A model generated the notes under the pieces. The model saw only the letters and a list, made by a program, of their open reading frames with translations, was not told the DNA's origin and did not search any database. A stretch of DNA of 9,036 bases from Ruminococcus sp. UBA3800 (GTDB lineage Bacteria > Bacillota > Clostridia > Oscillospirales > Ruminococcaceae): positions 1-9,036 of the forward strand of contig DFEO01000165.1 in NCBI GenBank assembly GCA_002368715.1, written 5' to 3'. The first letter of the stretch is position 1, and every line of letters starts with the position of its first letter. Below are positions 868 through 7,240 of the stretch, in pieces. Made by a program: the position numbers and the translations under genes.

Positions 868-893
868 GTAAATTCTGTAAAATGGTGAGCCTT

Positions 894-1700
894 ATGGATA
901 GTTTGGATATTAAATATGAAGAGCTGAAACAGTGGTTCATAAACCAGGGCTCGGCGGCGGTGGCCTTTTCGGCAGGTGTCGATTCGACGCTGCTGCTTTA
1001 TGCGGCACACGAAGCACTGGGCAGCAGTGCTCTGGCGCTCAGCGCAAGGTTCTGTCTTGTGCCTGAGGAGGAGAGCAGAGCAGCCGAGGAATTCTGTGAG
1101 GAGCTTGGGATAAGACATATAGTTGTTTCGGGCGATGAACTTCCGATAGATGCTTTCAGGGACAACCCCCGTAACAGATGCTATCTCTGTAAGCGTCAGC
1201 TTATGAGCAGGCTTCTGGCGGCCGCAAAAAAAGAGGGTGCGGCTTGTCTTGCCGAGGGATCCAACACGGACGACCTCGGAGCTTACCGGCCGGGTATGAA
1301 GGCCGTGGAGGAGCTGGGGATAGAAAGCCCGTTTCTGGAGCTTGGGTTTTCAAAGGACAGTATAAGGGAGCTTTCAAAAAGGCTTTCGCTTTCCACAGCG
1401 GATAAGCCCTCGCTTGCCTGTCTGGCATCACGCTTTGCCTATGGGTATGAGCTGACGCCGCAGCGACTGAAGGCGGTGGAAATGGCAGAGAGGTTCCTTC
1501 ACAGGCTGGGCTTCGGTCAGCTGAGGGTCCGCATAAGTGAAGAGGGCGCACGCATAGAGGTGCTGCCGCAGCAGTTTGAAAAGCTGTTTTTGCTGGCCGA
1601 TGAGATAACCGAAGGCCTGGAAATGCTCGGGTTTGAAAGAGTGACCGCCGACCTCAAAGGTTACCGCAGCGGCTCTTTTGATAAGCAGACACAAGAATAG
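894..1700 (+). CDS. larE: LarE, ATP-dependent sulfurtransferase of nickel-pincer cofactor synthesis
   Basis: LarE adenylates pyridinium-3,5-biscarboxylic acid mononucleotide and replaces carboxylate oxygens with sulfur, in the cytosol. With the start at 894 the protein is 268 residues, close to the family norm. The PP-loop ATP motif is SAGVDS at residues 26-31. EGSNTDD (about 121-127) and the conserved PSLACLASRFAYG block (about 172-184) follow. Cys176 in that block matches the sulfur-bearing Cys176 of Lactobacillus plantarum LarE. This protein also has the CYLC pair Cys96/Cys99, giving the three-cysteine set that in Thermotoga maritima LarE binds a [4Fe-4S] cluster. Start choice: ATG 894 follows GGTGAG (885-890), and its N-terminus fits the family; ATG 882 in the same frame has no ribosome site and would add MVSL. 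First gene of the lar operon. Confidence 0.93.
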   Translation: MDSLDIKYEELKQWFINQGSAAVAFSAGVDSTLLLYAAHEALGSSALALSARFCLVPEEESRAAEEFCEELGIRHIVVSGDELPIDAFRDNPRNRCYLCKRQLMSRLLAAAKKEGAACLAEGSNTDDLGAYRPGMKAVEELGIESPFLELGFSKDSIRELSKRLSLSTADKPSLACLASRFAYGYELTPQRLKAVEMAERFLHRLGFGQLRVRISEEGARIEVLPQQFEKLFLLADEITEGLEMLGFERVTADLKGYRSGSFDKQTQE

Positions 1701-1734
1701 AACAACATAAAAACAGGTTAAGGAGGACGCATTT

Positions 1735-2109
1735 ATGGCTTGTTTTACAGTACCCGCTGCTGAGGCAGTTGTGACGACTATCATTGCAAAGAAGGCAAAG
1801 AAAAACGAACAGGGCAGCAGCCATGCTCAGACGGAGGATATCCGTTTTTCCGAAAAGCTCGGCTGGCTCAATAAGATGCTGTGGGGCGGCTCGGGGCTTC
1901 TGGCCTTCGAGCATCTTTGGCACGGAGAGATCACTCCGTGGCCGCCGTTTCTGACATGGGCCGAGGATCCTGCCGGGATGTTTGCCGAGATGGCGACGAA
2001 CGGTGTTGGCATGGCGGCGCTGGTGACTCTTGTCTGGGCAGGAATGGTCGCAGTGACATCGAGGATATCGAAGGGCAGCCGTGAAAAGACCGGGGAGGTG
2101 GCACAATGA
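1735..2109 (+). CDS. Small membrane protein of the lar operon, first of a pair
   Basis: A 124-residue protein with no family I can name. Visible parts: N-terminal hydrophobic stretch VPAAEAVVTTIIA (6-18), a basic/polar region (19-45), a hydrophobic stretch around LWGGSGLLAFEHLW (49-62) running into HGEITPWPPFL, and a clear C-terminal membrane segment (about 91-108), then a charged tail. His60, His63 and Glu65 (the EHLWHGE stretch) sit at the end of a probable membrane segment and could bind a metal or proton. The ribosome site AAGGAGGA at 1720-1727 is the strongest in the operon, eight bases before ATG. It lies 34 bases after larE, and its stop overlaps the next start (ATGA). The setting suggests a role tied to nickel-pincer cofactor metabolism, such as transport; that is inference. 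Confidence 0.85.
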   Translation: MACFTVPAAEAVVTTIIAKKAKKNEQGSSHAQTEDIRFSEKLGWLNKMLWGGSGLLAFEHLWHGEITPWPPFLTWAEDPAGMFAEMATNGVGMAALVTLVWAGMVAVTSRISKGSREKTGEVAQ

Positions 2110-2435
2110 CCCTGCTTATCTCGACGATAGCTGCGGTCACAGCCACGGCCGTGTGGTATGCAAGCGAAAAGGCGAGAAAGCTGAGAGTCGGAACGCTTGC
2201 GCTCATGTATTGGGGAGCTTCGCTCATGTGGCTCGTCGATGCGGTGATCGAGTATGTCGAAGTTAAGGACAAGTATTTCACACCTGCTGCGAAGGATATG
2301 CTCAATGACGCTTTCCTTGGGCTCAGTGTTGCTGCTCTCGGGCTGGTCATATGGATCGTCATCGTTCTGGTCAATGACCCCTCGGGCGTTGTGAGAGCAG
2401 CGCTGGTCAGAAAGGGACAGGATGGAAAGAGATGA
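2106..2435 (+). CDS. Small membrane protein of the lar operon, second of a pair
   Basis: A 109-residue protein with three likely membrane helices: residues 2-19, 29-49 (LALMYWGASLMWLVDAVIE) and 68-89 (AFLGLSVAALGLVIWIVIVLV). The second helix carries acidic residues Asp45 and Glu49 near its end. KARK (22-25) after helix 1 and the basic C-terminus (VRKGQDGKR) suggest parts facing the cytosol. It starts by a four-base ATGA overlap with the previous membrane gene and overlaps larB by 14 bases, so all three are probably translationally coupled. The coupling to its neighbour suggests the two small proteins work as a hetero-oligomer. I cannot name a family. Nickel, lactate or cofactor-precursor transport are possible but not shown by the sequence. 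Confidence 0.85.
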   Translation: MTLLISTIAAVTATAVWYASEKARKLRVGTLALMYWGASLMWLVDAVIEYVEVKDKYFTPAAKDMLNDAFLGLSVAALGLVIWIVIVLVNDPSGVVRAALVRKGQDGKR

Positions 2436-3177
2436 GCTGAGAGCTCTGCTTGAGAGCGTGGCAGAGGGCAGGCTTTCGGCGGACGACGCCTTTATGAGCC
2501 TGCGTCTTGATCCGATAAAAGAACTGGGATATGCAAACATCGACACTCACCGCTCTCTCAGACAGGGGGCGGCAGAGGTCGTTTTCGGTGAGCCTAAGAC
2601 AGCACAGCAGATAAGAGGTATCCTGGAGGCTATGGCACAGAGCGGACAGAAGCGTGTGCTTATAACAAGGCTCTCCGAAGATAAGGCGGAGGAGCTTTGC
2701 GATATCGAGGGATTTTGCTATGACAAGACATCACGGACAGCCATGACAGGCCCCTGCAAAAAGGCGGACGGTATAGGAAAGATAGTCATTGCGACAGGCG
2801 GAACAGGAGATATCCCCGTGGCCGAAGAGGCCGCAAAAACAGCGGAGTTTCTGGGCAACGAGGTCGAGCGCCTGTACGACGTGGGAGTTGCCGGCATACA
2901 CAGGCTGCTTTCTCATGCTGATATGATAATGAGAGCAAGTGTCATTATCGCCGTTGCAGGAATGGAGGGGGCGCTTGCAAGCGTTGTGGGCGGTCTTGCC
3001 GATTGCCCTGTCATCGCTGTTCCGACAAGTGTCGGTTACGGTGCAAGCTTCGGCGGTGTTTCGGCGCTGCTGTCCATGCTCAACAGCTGTGCCTCGGGAG
3101 TATCGGTGGTCAATATCGACAACGGCTTCGGAGCAGCCTTTCAGGCAAGTATGATAAATCACATCGGGAGAAAATGA
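2422..3177 (+). CDS. larB: LarB, nicotinic acid adenine dinucleotide carboxylase/hydrolase
   Basis: LarB carries out the first step of nickel-pincer cofactor synthesis: it carboxylates the pyridinium ring of NaAD at C5 and cleaves the phosphoanhydride, giving pyridinium-3,5-biscarboxylic acid mononucleotide and AMP. The 251-residue length is normal. The N-terminal part has the family pattern LGYANIDTHRSLRQGAAEVVFG (about 35-56). The C-terminal half is PurE-like (AIR carboxylase): IVIATGGTGDIPVAEEA (121-137), the VAGMEGALASVVGGL block (178-192), PTSVGYGASFGG (201-212) and NSCASGVSVVNIDNGFGA (221-238). Cys223 in the last block is the probable counterpart of L. plantarum LarB Cys221, which forms an adduct with the substrate ring. 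It starts inside the end of the preceding membrane gene, and larC begins one base after its stop. Confidence 0.95.
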   Translation: MERDELRALLESVAEGRLSADDAFMSLRLDPIKELGYANIDTHRSLRQGAAEVVFGEPKTAQQIRGILEAMAQSGQKRVLITRLSEDKAEELCDIEGFCYDKTSRTAMTGPCKKADGIGKIVIATGGTGDIPVAEEAAKTAEFLGNEVERLYDVGVAGIHRLLSHADMIMRASVIIAVAGMEGALASVVGGLADCPVIAVPTSVGYGASFGGVSALLSMLNSCASGVSVVNIDNGFGAAFQASMINHIGRK

Positions 3178-3178
3178 T

Positions 3179-4423
3179 ATGAAAACACTTTTTCTTGACT
3201 GCTCGATGGGCGCAGCGGGAGATATGCTGACTGCTGCACTTTGCGAGCTTATAGACGACAGGGAAGCTTTTTTTGAACAGCTGAATGCTCTGCTGCCGCA
3301 GGCGGTCAGCGTCAGTGCAGACACTGTCACAAAGCAGGGCATAAAGGGCACCTCGGTAACGGTCCTTGTGGGCGCAAAAGAGGAGCACAGCGAGGATGTT
3401 CACCACCATGAGCATTCCCACGGTCACCACGAACACCACCACGAGCACGAACATCATCACGAGCATCACCATACATCCATGCAGGATATCGAGGAGCTTA
3501 TAAACAGCTTTGACGTTTCAGAGAAGGTCAGAAACGATGTGCTGGCTGTATACAGCCTTATCGCTGAGGCCGAGAGCGAAGCCCACGGCAGACCTGTCAG
3601 CGAGATACATTTTCACGAGGTCGGCACTCTTGATGCGGTGGCGGATGTTACCGCAGTCTGTATGCTTATGGAGAGGATAGCCCCCGAAAGGGTGGCAGCA
3701 TCGCCCGTGTGTGTGGGCAGCGGTCACGTTCACTGTGCCCACGGCATACTTCCTGTGCCTGCGCCTGCAACGGCGCATATCCTGCGTGGGGTGCCTGCAT
3801 ACAGCGGAAGCATCGAAGCTGAGCTTTGCACACCCACAGGTGCGGCTCTGTTAAAGCATTTTGTCACCGAGTTTTCCGATATGCCGGTCATTGCAGCAAA
3901 ACGCATCGGCTATGGGTTCGGAAAAAAAGATCTTGAGCGTCTTAACTGTGTCAGGGCCTTTCTTGGGGAAAGCTCTGACAGCAGCACCGAGGTCGCAGAG
4001 CTTTGCTGCAACATCGACGATATGACAGCCGAGGCTCTTGCGGCAGCACAGCGCAGGCTTTATGAGCTGGGGGCGCTGGAGGTCTACACAACGGCAGCGA
4101 ATATGAAAAAGGGCAGGGCAGGCATCGTTCTTACCTGTCTTTGCGAAGCAGATGTGCGCAAGCAAATGGCAAAGGCGATCCTTGTCCACACCACCACCAT
4201 AGGTGTGCGTGAAAGGCTTTGCAAAAGGTATACCCTTTCAAGACACACTGAAACCGTCAGCACTGCTTACGGCGATATAAGGGTGAAGGTATCGGAGGGC
4301 TTCGGGATAACAAAAGCAAAGCCCGAGGCCGATGACATCGAGCAGGCAGCAAAAACAAGCGGGGCGGCCTTTGAAGAGGTCAGAGAAGAAGCTCTGAGGT
4401 GTTTTTACAGCAAAAAGGGCTGA
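3179..4423 (+). CDS. larC: LarC, CTP-dependent nickel cyclometallase, single-chain form with His-rich insert
   Basis: LarC inserts nickel into pyridinium-3,5-bisthiocarboxylic acid mononucleotide using CTP, completing the nickel-pincer cofactor. The 414-residue chain has the LarC1 opening LDCSMGAAGDMLTAAL (6-21), EIHFHEVGTLDAVADV (142-157), GSGHVHCAHGILPVPAPAT (180-198) and CTPTGAALL (217-225). The LarC2 half follows, with CNIDDMTAEALAAA (277-290), NMKKGRAG (308-315) and TTTIGVRE (338-345). The two halves are in one frame; in L. plantarum they are split and joined by ribosomal frameshifting. Residues 70-98 hold 18 histidines with Glu, Gly and Ser between them, a likely nickel-binding loop. 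The ribosome site GGGAG (3166-3170) lies inside larB, eight bases before ATG. Last gene of the operon. Confidence 0.95.
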   Translation: MKTLFLDCSMGAAGDMLTAALCELIDDREAFFEQLNALLPQAVSVSADTVTKQGIKGTSVTVLVGAKEEHSEDVHHHEHSHGHHEHHHEHEHHHEHHHTSMQDIEELINSFDVSEKVRNDVLAVYSLIAEAESEAHGRPVSEIHFHEVGTLDAVADVTAVCMLMERIAPERVAASPVCVGSGHVHCAHGILPVPAPATAHILRGVPAYSGSIEAELCTPTGAALLKHFVTEFSDMPVIAAKRIGYGFGKKDLERLNCVRAFLGESSDSSTEVAELCCNIDDMTAEALAAAQRRLYELGALEVYTTAANMKKGRAGIVLTCLCEADVRKQMAKAILVHTTTIGVRERLCKRYTLSRHTETVSTAYGDIRVKVSEGFGITKAKPEADDIEQAAKTSGAAFEEVREEALRCFYSKKG

Positions 4424-4483: not shown

Positions 4484-5671
4484 TCATTGTTTCAGGTGAG
4501 AGGTCTGTCCTTTTTCCTTGCGAGCTTTTTTGTCAAGATACATCAGCTCATCCGCCTTGCGGTAAAGCTCGTCATAGTCATAATCGCCCTCTCCGAACTG
4601 CATACCGCAGGCAATAACACACTGTATATTGCCGCTTCTGTTTTGTTCATCAAGAGCCTGCTCCCAGCGCCTGCGTATCCGGAGAGCTTCTTTTTCGCTG
4701 ATATCCACGGCGACGATAAGAAATTCATCTCCGCCCATACGAAAGCCGTATACCTTGTCCGATACCACACGGTGGATGCTCTTTGCCGCATTGATTATAA
4801 GCTCGTCGCCACGCTCGTGGCCGTAGCTGTCATTTATGTTTTTCAGGTTGTTGACATCTAAATTGAATATCGCTATGCTTTCGGGGCGGCCAAAGGCAGC
4901 TGCTTTCAGGGCTATATACTTTCCTTTGTTATAAAGCCCGGTCAGTCCGTCGTGCTCGCTTTCATAAACTATCCTCTCACGAAGTATGCTGTTTTCGATA
5001 AAGAGTTTGAGCACATTGTAGGCGGAGATGTCAAGAAAGTTGTCCGGCTTGAAGGAGGGGGTGAGCTTTGCAAACACGCAGTATCTCCTGTTGTCTGTGC
5101 TGGATGACAGCATACACAGATATCCGCCTCTTTTTTCATTACGGTGACACGAAAACACATCCTCGGTCTCAGAGGTGTTTTCGAGCCTGGTGCGAGTCAT
5201 GGTGCCGCTGAAAACGCTCTTGGTGATGTATCCGTCAGTGTCGCAGTACATCATAAGCTCTTTTGCGCCGCAATACTGTGCCAGTGCGGGCATGAACGAA
5301 TCATATTTGTCGGACATCAGCTGAACTATCTGAGTCTGGAATGCAGAGATCTCAGCAAGGCTCTTGGTGTATGAAAGAGCTTCCTTTGTGAGCAGGGAGA
5401 ACTCTGTCACATCAGTGAAATGAAAGCAGATGTATTCCTTGCCCTCATACTCTGTTCTCATCCTGCGTGCTTTCAGGCTGACACGCTGTTCGGCATCAAC
5501 AAGCTCCCACTCCTCGACGTCTTCATGGTGAGCCCTTATATCCCTGAATATCTGGTCGAAGGAATAAGGGAAAAACTCACTTTTCCAGACAAGATCTCCG
5601 TTTGTGTCGGTTATTATCATGTGTTCCTTTTCACATTCAAAAAACTTTCCGATCAGCTTGTCTATTATCAT
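4484..5671 (-). CDS. Cytosolic diguanylate cyclase (GGDEF protein) with N-terminal sensory region
   Basis: The protein should make cyclic di-GMP from two GTP. From the chosen start it has 395 residues and no membrane segment. Residues about 10-92 look PAS-like (HMIITDTNGDLVWKS near 17-31, ICFHFTDVTEFS near 81-92). Residues about 100-230 form a second, perhaps GAF-like, region rich in Cys and aromatic residues. The GGDEF domain starts at HDGLTGLYNK (240-249), with FNLDVNNLKNINDSYGH (269-285) and an intact GGDEF at 313-317. The inhibitory RxxD site normally five residues before GGDEF is absent (SDKV). Start: ATG at 5671 follows a GGGGGTG ribosome site. An upstream in-frame ATG at 5794 would place the promoter inside the gene and is rejected. 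No EAL or HD-GYP partner is in the window. Confidence 0.92.
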   Translation of the reverse strand: MIIDKLIGKFFECEKEHMIITDTNGDLVWKSEFFPYSFDQIFRDIRAHHEDVEEWELVDAEQRVSLKARRMRTEYEGKEYICFHFTDVTEFSLLTKEALSYTKSLAEISAFQTQIVQLMSDKYDSFMPALAQYCGAKELMMYCDTDGYITKSVFSGTMTRTRLENTSETEDVFSCHRNEKRGGYLCMLSSSTDNRRYCVFAKLTPSFKPDNFLDISAYNVLKLFIENSILRERIVYESEHDGLTGLYNKGKYIALKAAAFGRPESIAIFNLDVNNLKNINDSYGHERGDELIINAAKSIHRVVSDKVYGFRMGGDEFLIVAVDISEKEALRIRRRWEQALDEQNRSGNIQCVIACGMQFGEGDYDYDELYRKADELMYLDKKARKEKGQTSHLKQ

Positions 5672-5708
5672 ATCCGCACCCCCTGTTTCGTGAAAGTCGA
5701 TTTTTGTT

Positions 5709-5737
5709 ATTATAGCACAGATGATGCTGTTTTTCAA
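5709..5737 (-). promoter_or_regulatory. Sigma-A promoter of the GGDEF gene
   Basis: On the minus strand, TTGAAA (complement of 5732-5737) and TATAAT (complement of 5709-5714) are 17 bases apart, with TGC directly before the -10 (extended -10). Start near 5702 gives a leader of about 30 bases to the ATG at 5671, which supports the shorter start of the protein. Confidence 0.72.
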
Positions 5738-5813
5738 GAGGCTCCCAAGCGATGTGTAAGAAATTTGCATTGCTGTAAATATATGTAAATACAATTGATC
5801 TATTCATTTTCTA

Positions 5814-5869: not shown

Positions 5870-5896
5870 GCCTAGAAAAATATGGAGGAATTTATT

Positions 5897-6850
5897 ATGA
5901 AGATCACAAGAATAATGACAGCTTCTGCTGTTGCACTGACACTGGCTTTCGGCACTGCTATCTCTGCAAGCGCTGCGACCTTTGACATGAACACACCTGC
6001 TATCACAGGTGAGGGCATCGTTCTCGAGAACCCCGGCGATTCTATCACCACCGAGGGAACAAGCAAGGAACTGCAGTTTGATTCGGACTTTACATTCCGC
6101 TGGGAAGACAGTTATTATGATGAGGACGAGTATAGCTATATGTATGATGGCGACTCCTGGGGTGGTGTTAAAGAATTCTTTATTGACGACAACGGAATTT
6201 ACCGCATTTCCGAATATGGTGATACTGACTATTTCTATCCCGATGAGGGCTGCATTTTTGTTGTAACTTATGAGCCTGCTACATCAGGCGATGACAGCTC
6301 AAGCTCCGGCTATGATGAATCTTATGATTATTGGCATATCGAGCAGGTAGAAGACGACAGAGTTGACCTTTCCACTGCTGACGTTCAGGTAAACACCACA
6401 GACAAGACTATCACAGTTGTTGATGCTGACGGCAACCCTGTTGACAGCGGCTGCTACACTGTTGAATTTGTTAAAGGCGACAGCTCCTCTACTGAGTTCC
6501 CCACAGAAGTCGGCGAATACACCGTAGTTGTTACAGCTACACCCGGCGCAAGACACGCAAAGGGCGTAAACGACAACGCTACATTCACTATCACTCCTCC
6601 GGAAGAGAGTGAGTCCGAGAGTGAGAGCACTTCCGAGAGCGAGGCTGAGAGCCAGGCAGACGAGTCTTCCGAGGCCGAGAGCACCGCTGATACAAGCTCA
6701 AAGGCAGATTCCAGCTCGAAGGCTGACGCAAGCTCCAAGGCTGCAAGCACAGCTTCCACAACTAACCCCGGCACGGGTGCAGCTGCCGCTATGGGCATCG
6801 TTGCTATCGCAGCAGCCGGTGTTGCTGTAAGCAAGAAGAAGTCCAGATAA
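5897..6850 (+). CDS. Secreted, probably sortase-anchored surface protein of unknown function
   Basis: A 317-residue protein. The signal peptide spans residues 1-26 with an ASA|A cleavage site (MKITR basic start, then AVALTLAFGTAISASA). The mature N-terminal domain (about 27-130) is unusually rich in Tyr, Asp and Glu (SYYDEDEYSYMYDGDSWGG near 72-90), with one Cys at 119. Residues about 156-233 look like a bacterial Ig-type beta domain, with VDADGNPVDSGCYTVEF and FPTEVGEYTVVVTATPG. A low-complexity Ser/Glu/Ala stalk (236-289) includes SSKAD units. The end is NPGTG (290-294), a hydrophobic helix and KKKSR, the layout of a sortase signal. Start: ATG 5897 lies eight bases after GGAGG (5884-5888); the in-frame ATG 5882 overlaps that ribosome site and is rejected. 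No partner gene or sortase is nearby. Function is not recognised; a cell-wall-displayed binding or adhesion role is possible. Confidence 0.88.
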   Translation: MKITRIMTASAVALTLAFGTAISASAATFDMNTPAITGEGIVLENPGDSITTEGTSKELQFDSDFTFRWEDSYYDEDEYSYMYDGDSWGGVKEFFIDDNGIYRISEYGDTDYFYPDEGCIFVVTYEPATSGDDSSSSGYDESYDYWHIEQVEDDRVDLSTADVQVNTTDKTITVVDADGNPVDSGCYTVEFVKGDSSSTEFPTEVGEYTVVVTATPGARHAKGVNDNATFTITPPEESESESESTSESEAESQADESSEAESTADTSSKADSSSKADASSKAASTASTTNPGTGAAAAMGIVAIAAAGVAVSKKKSR

Positions 6851-7150: not shown

Positions 7151-7240
7151 TGGCGGAGACGGTGAGATTCGAACTCACGAGCCCGGTATGGGCTAACGCA
7201 TTTCGAGTGCGCCCCGTTATGACCACTTCGATACGTCTCC
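7151..7240 (-). tRNA. tRNA-Ser, anticodon CGA
   Basis: The minus strand gives a class II tRNA. The acceptor stem is GGAGACG/CGTCTCC, with G as the unpaired base and an encoded CCA (7151-7153). The anticodon stem-loop is CGCA-CTCGAAA-TGCG with anticodon CGA, reading the serine codon UCG. The long variable arm is AGCCC-ATACC-GGGCT, and the T arm is GTGAG-TTCGAAT-CTCAC. The long variable arm and CGA anticodon make serine certain. It has its own promoter and terminator, so it is a single-gene transcript. Confidence 0.97.

Follow-up and report, generated by a model that had tools for sequence, protein, structure and literature searches.

Two small proteins, ORF1 and ORF2, predicted to be membrane proteins, are encoded between larE and larB in the 9,036-nucleotide stretch of Ruminococcus DNA analysed here (the window), and their relatives stand beside genes for four nickel systems. 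Nickel is what links the lar genes, CO dehydrogenase, urease and [NiFe] hydrogenase, so that nickel supply is the common theme, and a role of the pair in nickel handling, of whatever form, is in our view highly probable. Since the two proteins lie beside all four systems and occur together in every genome tested, they are likely to be two subunits of a nickel importer; we infer transport itself, and hold this reading to be probable. The task would be a known one, and the protein family that probably performs it an undescribed one.

In the window, larE, ORF1, ORF2, larB and larC follow one another on a single strand with short or negative spacings, and the operon (882-4423) holds these five genes only. 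It opens with larE (882..1700, + strand), encoding an ATP-dependent sacrificial sulfur transferase (TIGR00268, 285 bits, over cut-off). Next come ORF1 (1735..2109, +; 124 residues) and ORF2 (2106..2435, +; 109 residues), each predicted from charge distribution and AlphaFold to be a three-helix membrane subunit, and then larB (2422..3177, +; NF033503, 284 bits, over cut-off) and larC (3179..4423, +; PF01969, 430 bits; TIGR00299 and NF052512 over cut-off), a nickel insertion protein with a His-rich stretch. An earlier sequence-only reading of this DNA had placed both ORFs, with these lengths, between larE and larB, joined to each other by an ATGA overlap and to larB by a 14-base overlap; the coordinates agree, and both overlaps are seen in the sequence, at 2106-2109 and at the larB start at 2422. 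It had also ranked the ribosome site of ORF1 above all others in the operon, a place that belongs instead to ORF2. Calculated as a duplex with the 16S 3' end over the 20 bases upstream, the ORF2 site (2092..2101, +) reaches -16.1 kcal/mol and the ORF1 site, TAAGGAGG (1719..1726, +), -12.1 kcal/mol; both are strong, and the lar gene sites lie between -3.3 and -7.4 kcal/mol. An Rfam search at gathering scores, run on the window together with ten loci, gave no riboswitches, only tRNAs and a 6S RNA. Elsewhere in the window are a lipoprotein-like protein with no Pfam match (58-681, -), a GGDEF diguanylate cyclase (4484-5794, -), a secreted-looking protein rich in serine and glutamate (5882-6850, +) and a tRNA-Ser (CGA) gene (7151-7240, -).

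The description of the pair as unrecognised holds, in that neither ORF passes the cut-off of any Pfam or NCBIfam model. A Pfam-A scan at E <= 1 gave no more than two matches for ORF1, DUF7038 (E 0.012) and a holin (0.13), neither of which reaches the cut-off, and ORF2 matched none of the Pfam-A models. The ORFs are not chance reading frames, because 4260 database clusters match ORF1 and 5391 match ORF2 at E <= 0.001; among the best 120 relatives listed for each, the named ones are hypothetical or uncharacterized proteins. In the literature searched, which covered few subscription papers, we recognised no report describing the ORF1-ORF2 pair.

ORF1 searches found it in 23 of the 295 genomes of the window's order and in 42 of 391 of its class; the class figure includes G304, which is a fragment, and the genome of the window itself. 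That the two genes are coupled, as had been proposed, is borne out by the presence of ORF2 in all 59 ORF1-positive genomes tested and in none of 80 ORF1-negative ones, 56 of which have LarB; the 59 positive genomes, run with the identical alignment, served as the positive control. Gene neighbourhoods, taken as the 6 kb around ORF1, were compared in three sets that overlap in genomes and species: the 80 loci in named genome records closest to the window's ORF1, an order sample of 22 loci other than the window, and a class sample of 51 ORF1 copies. ORF2 immediately follows ORF1 at 78 of the 80 closest loci and lies within 6 kb of it in 39 of the 51 class-sample copies; the other 12 copies have no ORF2 at this distance, some of them standing at contig ends. 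Five genomes of one genus (g165) carry two or three copies of ORF1 and a single ORF2. At one locus (L242:2955-3482; also L085 and L132; genome G091, counted as ORF1-positive) an in-frame TGA interrupts ORF1, so that this copy may be broken or misassembled. ORF1 and ORF2 have similar motifs (WGGS and WGAS) and matching predicted topology. An internal duplication or common ancestry of the two was considered and is not claimed, because the hhalign probability is 5.7%.

Among the most strongly conserved residues of ORF1 are several of a kind that could bind metal. Counts are of full-length matches, 7 of 209 locus matches to ORF1 having been dropped as partial. In 256 ORF1 sequences, Met1, Cys3, Glu10, Gly51, Gly52, Glu59, His60, Trp62, His63, Gly64, Glu65, Pro71, Gly90, Met93 and Trp101 are invariant, and the EHxWHGE motif is kept in all 145 distinct locus ORFs. 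The sequence-only reading had singled out His60, His63 and Glu65, each of which is present in 256/256 sequences, together with Asp45 and Glu49 of ORF2, which are kept in 247/247 and 240/247 sequences, respectively. Invariant in the 247 ORF2 sequences, besides Asp45, are Trp17, Trp36, Gly37, Met41 and Trp42. Most ORF2 sequences begin Met-Thr-Leu, and ORF1 begins Met-Ala-Cys in 254 of 256, a start that may resemble nickel-binding N-termini such as those of NiSOD, ATCUN-like motifs and NikM.

In both proteins positive charge is concentrated in loop 1 and the C-terminal tail and negative charge in loop 2, a distribution which predicts an external N-terminus and would thus have both Cys3 and the EHxWHGE motif facing outwards. 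A joint AlphaFold model of ORF1 and ORF2 from a relative has three helices in each chain (pLDDT 80.2, pTM 0.67); the window's ORF1 modelled alone gave pLDDT 67.6 and pTM 0.40, from a sequence and an alignment that differ from those of the joint model. Taken with the charge distribution, the models predict three membrane helices per subunit, N-terminus out and C-terminus in, and a 1:1 complex would have six (3+3). In comparison with the PDB no fold stands out.

Why does one pair of membrane proteins recur beside such different enzymes? The proposed link to the lar genes is well founded: a lar gene lies within reach of the pair in 54 of the 80 closest loci, 15 of the 22 order-sample loci and 21 of the 51 class-sample copies. 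Homologues found mostly away from lar genes had been named in advance as an outcome that would refute the proposal, and here the result is mixed: most of the closest relatives are beside lar genes, and 30 of the 51 class-sample copies are not. The further proposal, that the pair is an accessory specific to the nickel-pincer cofactor, is not supported. We dropped it because CO dehydrogenase, urease and [NiFe]-hydrogenase-like contexts were found as well, and some genomes with the pair are without LarC. Beyond the 54 lar loci, 11 of the 80 closest have CO dehydrogenase and 15 have neither; in the order sample, three loci are beside or within 6 kb of urease and one has a HypA-like gene.

These other contexts are identified to differing depth. 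For CO dehydrogenase, one locus was tested (TIGR01702, 497 bits, cut-off 478) and the others were assigned by similarity; the enzyme is over cut-off in 11 of 295 order genomes and in 0 of the 23 that have ORF1, so that this context comes from the 80 closest loci, mainly of Ruminococcus. The pair lies within urease operons at L147, assigned by similarity, and L150 (UreC, TIGR01792, 962 bits; UreG, TIGR00101, 354 bits), and about 5 kb from one at L151. At L234 it is directly upstream of an operon that we read, by sequence, as a probable group-4-like [NiFe] hydrogenase. The large subunit (359 residues) has complex I subunits as its best NCBIfam matches, below cut-off; PF00346 and PF00374 are both over cut-off, and it keeps RICGIC and ends in DPCISCTER, which we take to supply the four nickel-binding cysteines of [NiFe] hydrogenases. 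A HypA gene follows that of the large subunit (PF01155 over cut-off); against the NCBIfam model, with its cut-off of 88 bits, the HypA proteins of L148 and L234 score 80 and 73 bits.

The CO dehydrogenases have features of their own. All 11 catalytic subunits (L004:6880-8982, L005, L007, L008, L009, L017, L019, L033, L042, L045 and L069) have a His-rich N-terminus and carry DVQD where a solved relative has the cysteine of DYQC; five other cluster motifs are kept in all 11, except for one not found in L009. An ABC transporter with sulfonate/taurine-like subunits adjoins the enzyme in L004, and related genes occur in most of the other ten.

Of the class-sample copies, 29 of 51 have none of the tested nickel genes within 6 kb, some being on short contigs; a DUF362 protein lies within this distance in 12 of these 29 and an ArsP_1 permease in 11. 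Across the whole class sample a DUF362 protein, likely exported, is near ORF1 in 21 of 51 copies (L190:726-2168, L193:6423-7880 and 19 others), often together with ArsP_1, and the two of these proteins that were tested also have copper-amine-oxidase N-terminal domains. Three DUF362-associated genomes with ORF1 are without LarC. DUF362 belongs to the Pfam clan of LarA (PMC11770544). A DUF3842 gene also recurs just upstream of the pair (L010:6974-7414, PF12953; L040, L199, L201, L237, L242 and others). The position of the pair relative to the lar genes varies, lying before larE, before larB or after larC, which argues against a single inherited block, and on a poorly resolved tree seven changes among nickel contexts are needed.

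Nickel markers follow the pair across genomes, in comparisons of ORF1-positive with ORF1-negative genomes that ignore kinship. LarB is over cut-off in 14 of 23 ORF1-positive and 56 of 272 ORF1-negative order genomes (p = 8e-5), and LarC is found in 52 of 63 ORF1-positive and 4 of 17 ORF1-negative genomes, one of the four being marginal. Some nickel marker is present in 60 of the 63. Eleven ORF1-positive genomes have no LarC. Urease genes adjoin the pair or lie close to it in G159, G279 and G288, and G365 carries the hydrogenase-like operon. In G019 and G116 the contig with the pair also bears HypA-like and HypB/UreG-like genes, and LarB is present in two more, over cut-off in G156 and as a contig-edge fragment in G051. 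In the stretches searched of three genomes of one genus (G323, G355, G472), no nickel marker was found. The window's own genome (G000, 80% complete) has larB, larC and larE, with no LarA (PF09861) and no DUF362 found. A link running through LarA was considered and dropped, LarA being over cut-off in 20 of the 63 ORF1-positive genomes.

Among known systems, one close parallel is the CbiM/NikM-CbiN/NikN core of the ECF nickel/cobalt importers (PF01891), which like the pair consists of small membrane subunits encoded beside nickel enzyme genes. In CbiM/NikM the Met1-His2 region is a metal ligand, and in ORF1, too, the N-terminal segment is a likely one. The two also differ. CbiM/NikM begins Met-His-Ile, in place of Met-Ala-Cys in ORF1 and mostly Met-Thr-Leu in ORF2; its energisers CbiQ/CbiO are absent from the window's operon; and the pair, unlike CbiM/NikM, is predicted to be two three-helix subunits. 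Neither ORF matches PF01891 at E <= 1, and hhalign comparison with three CbiM sequences gave probabilities of 0.1-0.3%. NiCoT, HupE/UreJ and UreH proteins, which are single polypeptides and some of whose genes adjoin hydrogenase or urease genes, probably have a function in common with the pair; neither ORF matches the NiCoT/NicO, HupE-UreJ or UreH Pfam models at E <= 1. All three are listed as secondary nickel transporters in one paper (PMC2667541). With NikABCDE and other ABC nickel importers the pair again probably shares the function of nickel uptake, but the window's operon encodes no binding protein, ABC permease or ATPase of that type. LarD, the lactic acid channel of lar operons, belongs to the aquaglyceroporin family and like the pair is a membrane protein encoded with lar genes; neither ORF matches that family in Pfam, and the pair, unlike LarD, also occurs with other nickel enzymes. 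By sequence the pair falls outside all the Pfam nickel transporter families.

CbiM/NikM was the one importer family profiled across genomes, and its occurrence is inverse to that of the pair. Strong CbiM/NikM, for which we drew the line at E < 1e-30, is found in 0 of 23 ORF1-positive against 44 of 272 ORF1-negative order genomes (p = 0.03) and, within genomes that have LarB, in 0 of 14 against 22 of 56 (p = 0.003). When order and class genomes with ORF1 are taken together it occurs in 2 of 63 (G441 and G547), against the same 44 of 272 from the order. At the curated Pfam cut-off the corresponding order counts for CbiM are 1 of 23 against 56 of 272 (p = 0.09) and, within LarB-positive genomes, 1 of 14 against 22 of 56 (p = 0.03), the sole ORF1-positive genome being the window's own (E 6e-7). 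The contrast, weaker at the curated cut-off, suggests that the pair replaces CbiM/NikM.

Could the pair handle nickel without importing it? It might be a membrane nickel sensor, store or docking site, relaying metal brought in by another importer to LarC, CO dehydrogenase, UreE or HypA and carrying none across the membrane on its own account. The small size of the proteins, the invariant metal-type ligands of ORF1, the lack of an ATPase in the operon, of a family match or of a PDB fold that stands out, and the His-rich neighbours (LarC and the CO dehydrogenase N-termini, with 5-17 His in 11/11) would all suit such a role. We nevertheless think it unlikely, for the predicted topology turns the invariant ligands outwards, away from partners in the cytoplasm, and the inverse relation to CbiM/NikM, though weaker at the curated cut-off, suggests replacement rather than cooperation. 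Export of surplus nickel, protecting cells that accumulate the metal and switched on by a metal-sensing repressor, would account for the CsoR/RcnR-type metal-sensitive repressors, His-rich at the N-terminus, that adjoin the pair at L153:8982-9323 (PF02583) and L070:5025-5348 (by similarity). Regulators of this type are usually tied to efflux, and these two are the best evidence for it. Such a repressor is present, however, in one of the 80 closest loci (L070) and in one order- or class-sample genome (L153/L103), and import fits better both with the frequent position of the pair inside or beside nickel-enzyme biosynthetic operons and with its tendency to be missing from genomes that have strong CbiM/NikM; efflux thus seems distinctly unlikely.

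Two further explanations would take nickel itself out of the foreground. The pair might move other or broader metals, such as Co or Zn, the nickel contexts being simply its commonest use. An ArsP_1 permease, whose best NCBIfam match is a Cu/Zn efflux family, below cut-off, does accompany ORF1, at no more than 6 kb, in 18 of the 51 copies of the class sample, but all four enzyme contexts identified are nickel systems, and we regard this broader role as very improbable. Location in a lar operon would suit a LarD-like carrier for lactate or some other hydroxy acid on which a LarA-type enzyme acts. The urease, CO dehydrogenase and hydrogenase-like contexts share nickel and no substrate, though, and LarA is over cut-off in so few of the genomes with ORF1, the 80% complete genome of the window itself yielding none, that we give this idea scarcely any credence.

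A nickel importer is the simplest explanation that covers the nickel contexts, the inverse occurrence of CbiM/NikM and the invariant residues of the predicted outer face. Counting against it are the 29 class-sample copies with no tested nickel gene nearby, the three genomes in which no nickel marker was found, the two genomes that have both ORF1 and strong CbiM, and the two CsoR/RcnR-type repressors. As for nickel transporters as a functional class, gene association with nickel enzymes was found, here in four contexts. We infer the direction, metal site, route and driving force as follows. Ni(II) would be caught on the outer face by ORF1, with ligands from the free N-terminus with Cys3 and from the invariant stretch Glu59-His60...His63-Gly64-Glu65, where helix 2 reaches the outside, and may then follow the paired helices, passing Asp45, Glu49 and Met41 of ORF2. 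It would be handed to a cytoplasmic nickel protein, which in the window would be the His-rich LarC and elsewhere the His-rich N-terminus of CO dehydrogenase, UreE/UreG or HypA, so that the importer would supply whichever nickel cofactor or enzyme the neighbouring genes make. As the window's operon has no ATPase gene, the driving force may be the membrane potential, or an energiser encoded elsewhere.

On balance, and a shade less firmly than for import as such, we lean towards the view that the pair represents a new importer family for nickel. Its members would consist of two three-helix proteins with an external nickel site formed by Met-Ala-Cys and EHxWHGE of ORF1; they would be widespread in gut and rumen Clostridia, stand in for CbiMNQO/NikMNQO, and be shuffled among the nickel enzymes that the cell makes, whether nickel-pincer enzymes, CO dehydrogenase, urease or hydrogenase. 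Nickel enzymes shape the chemistry of the gut and rumen through urea hydrolysis, CO and H2 metabolism and the isomers of lactate. If the pair is an importer, it would supply the missing step of nickel acquisition in those of these Clostridia in which no CbiM/NikM is found, and would serve as a genome marker for nickel-dependent metabolism. It would also offer a small two-subunit model for metal transport, and could help in making active nickel-pincer enzymes in laboratory hosts.
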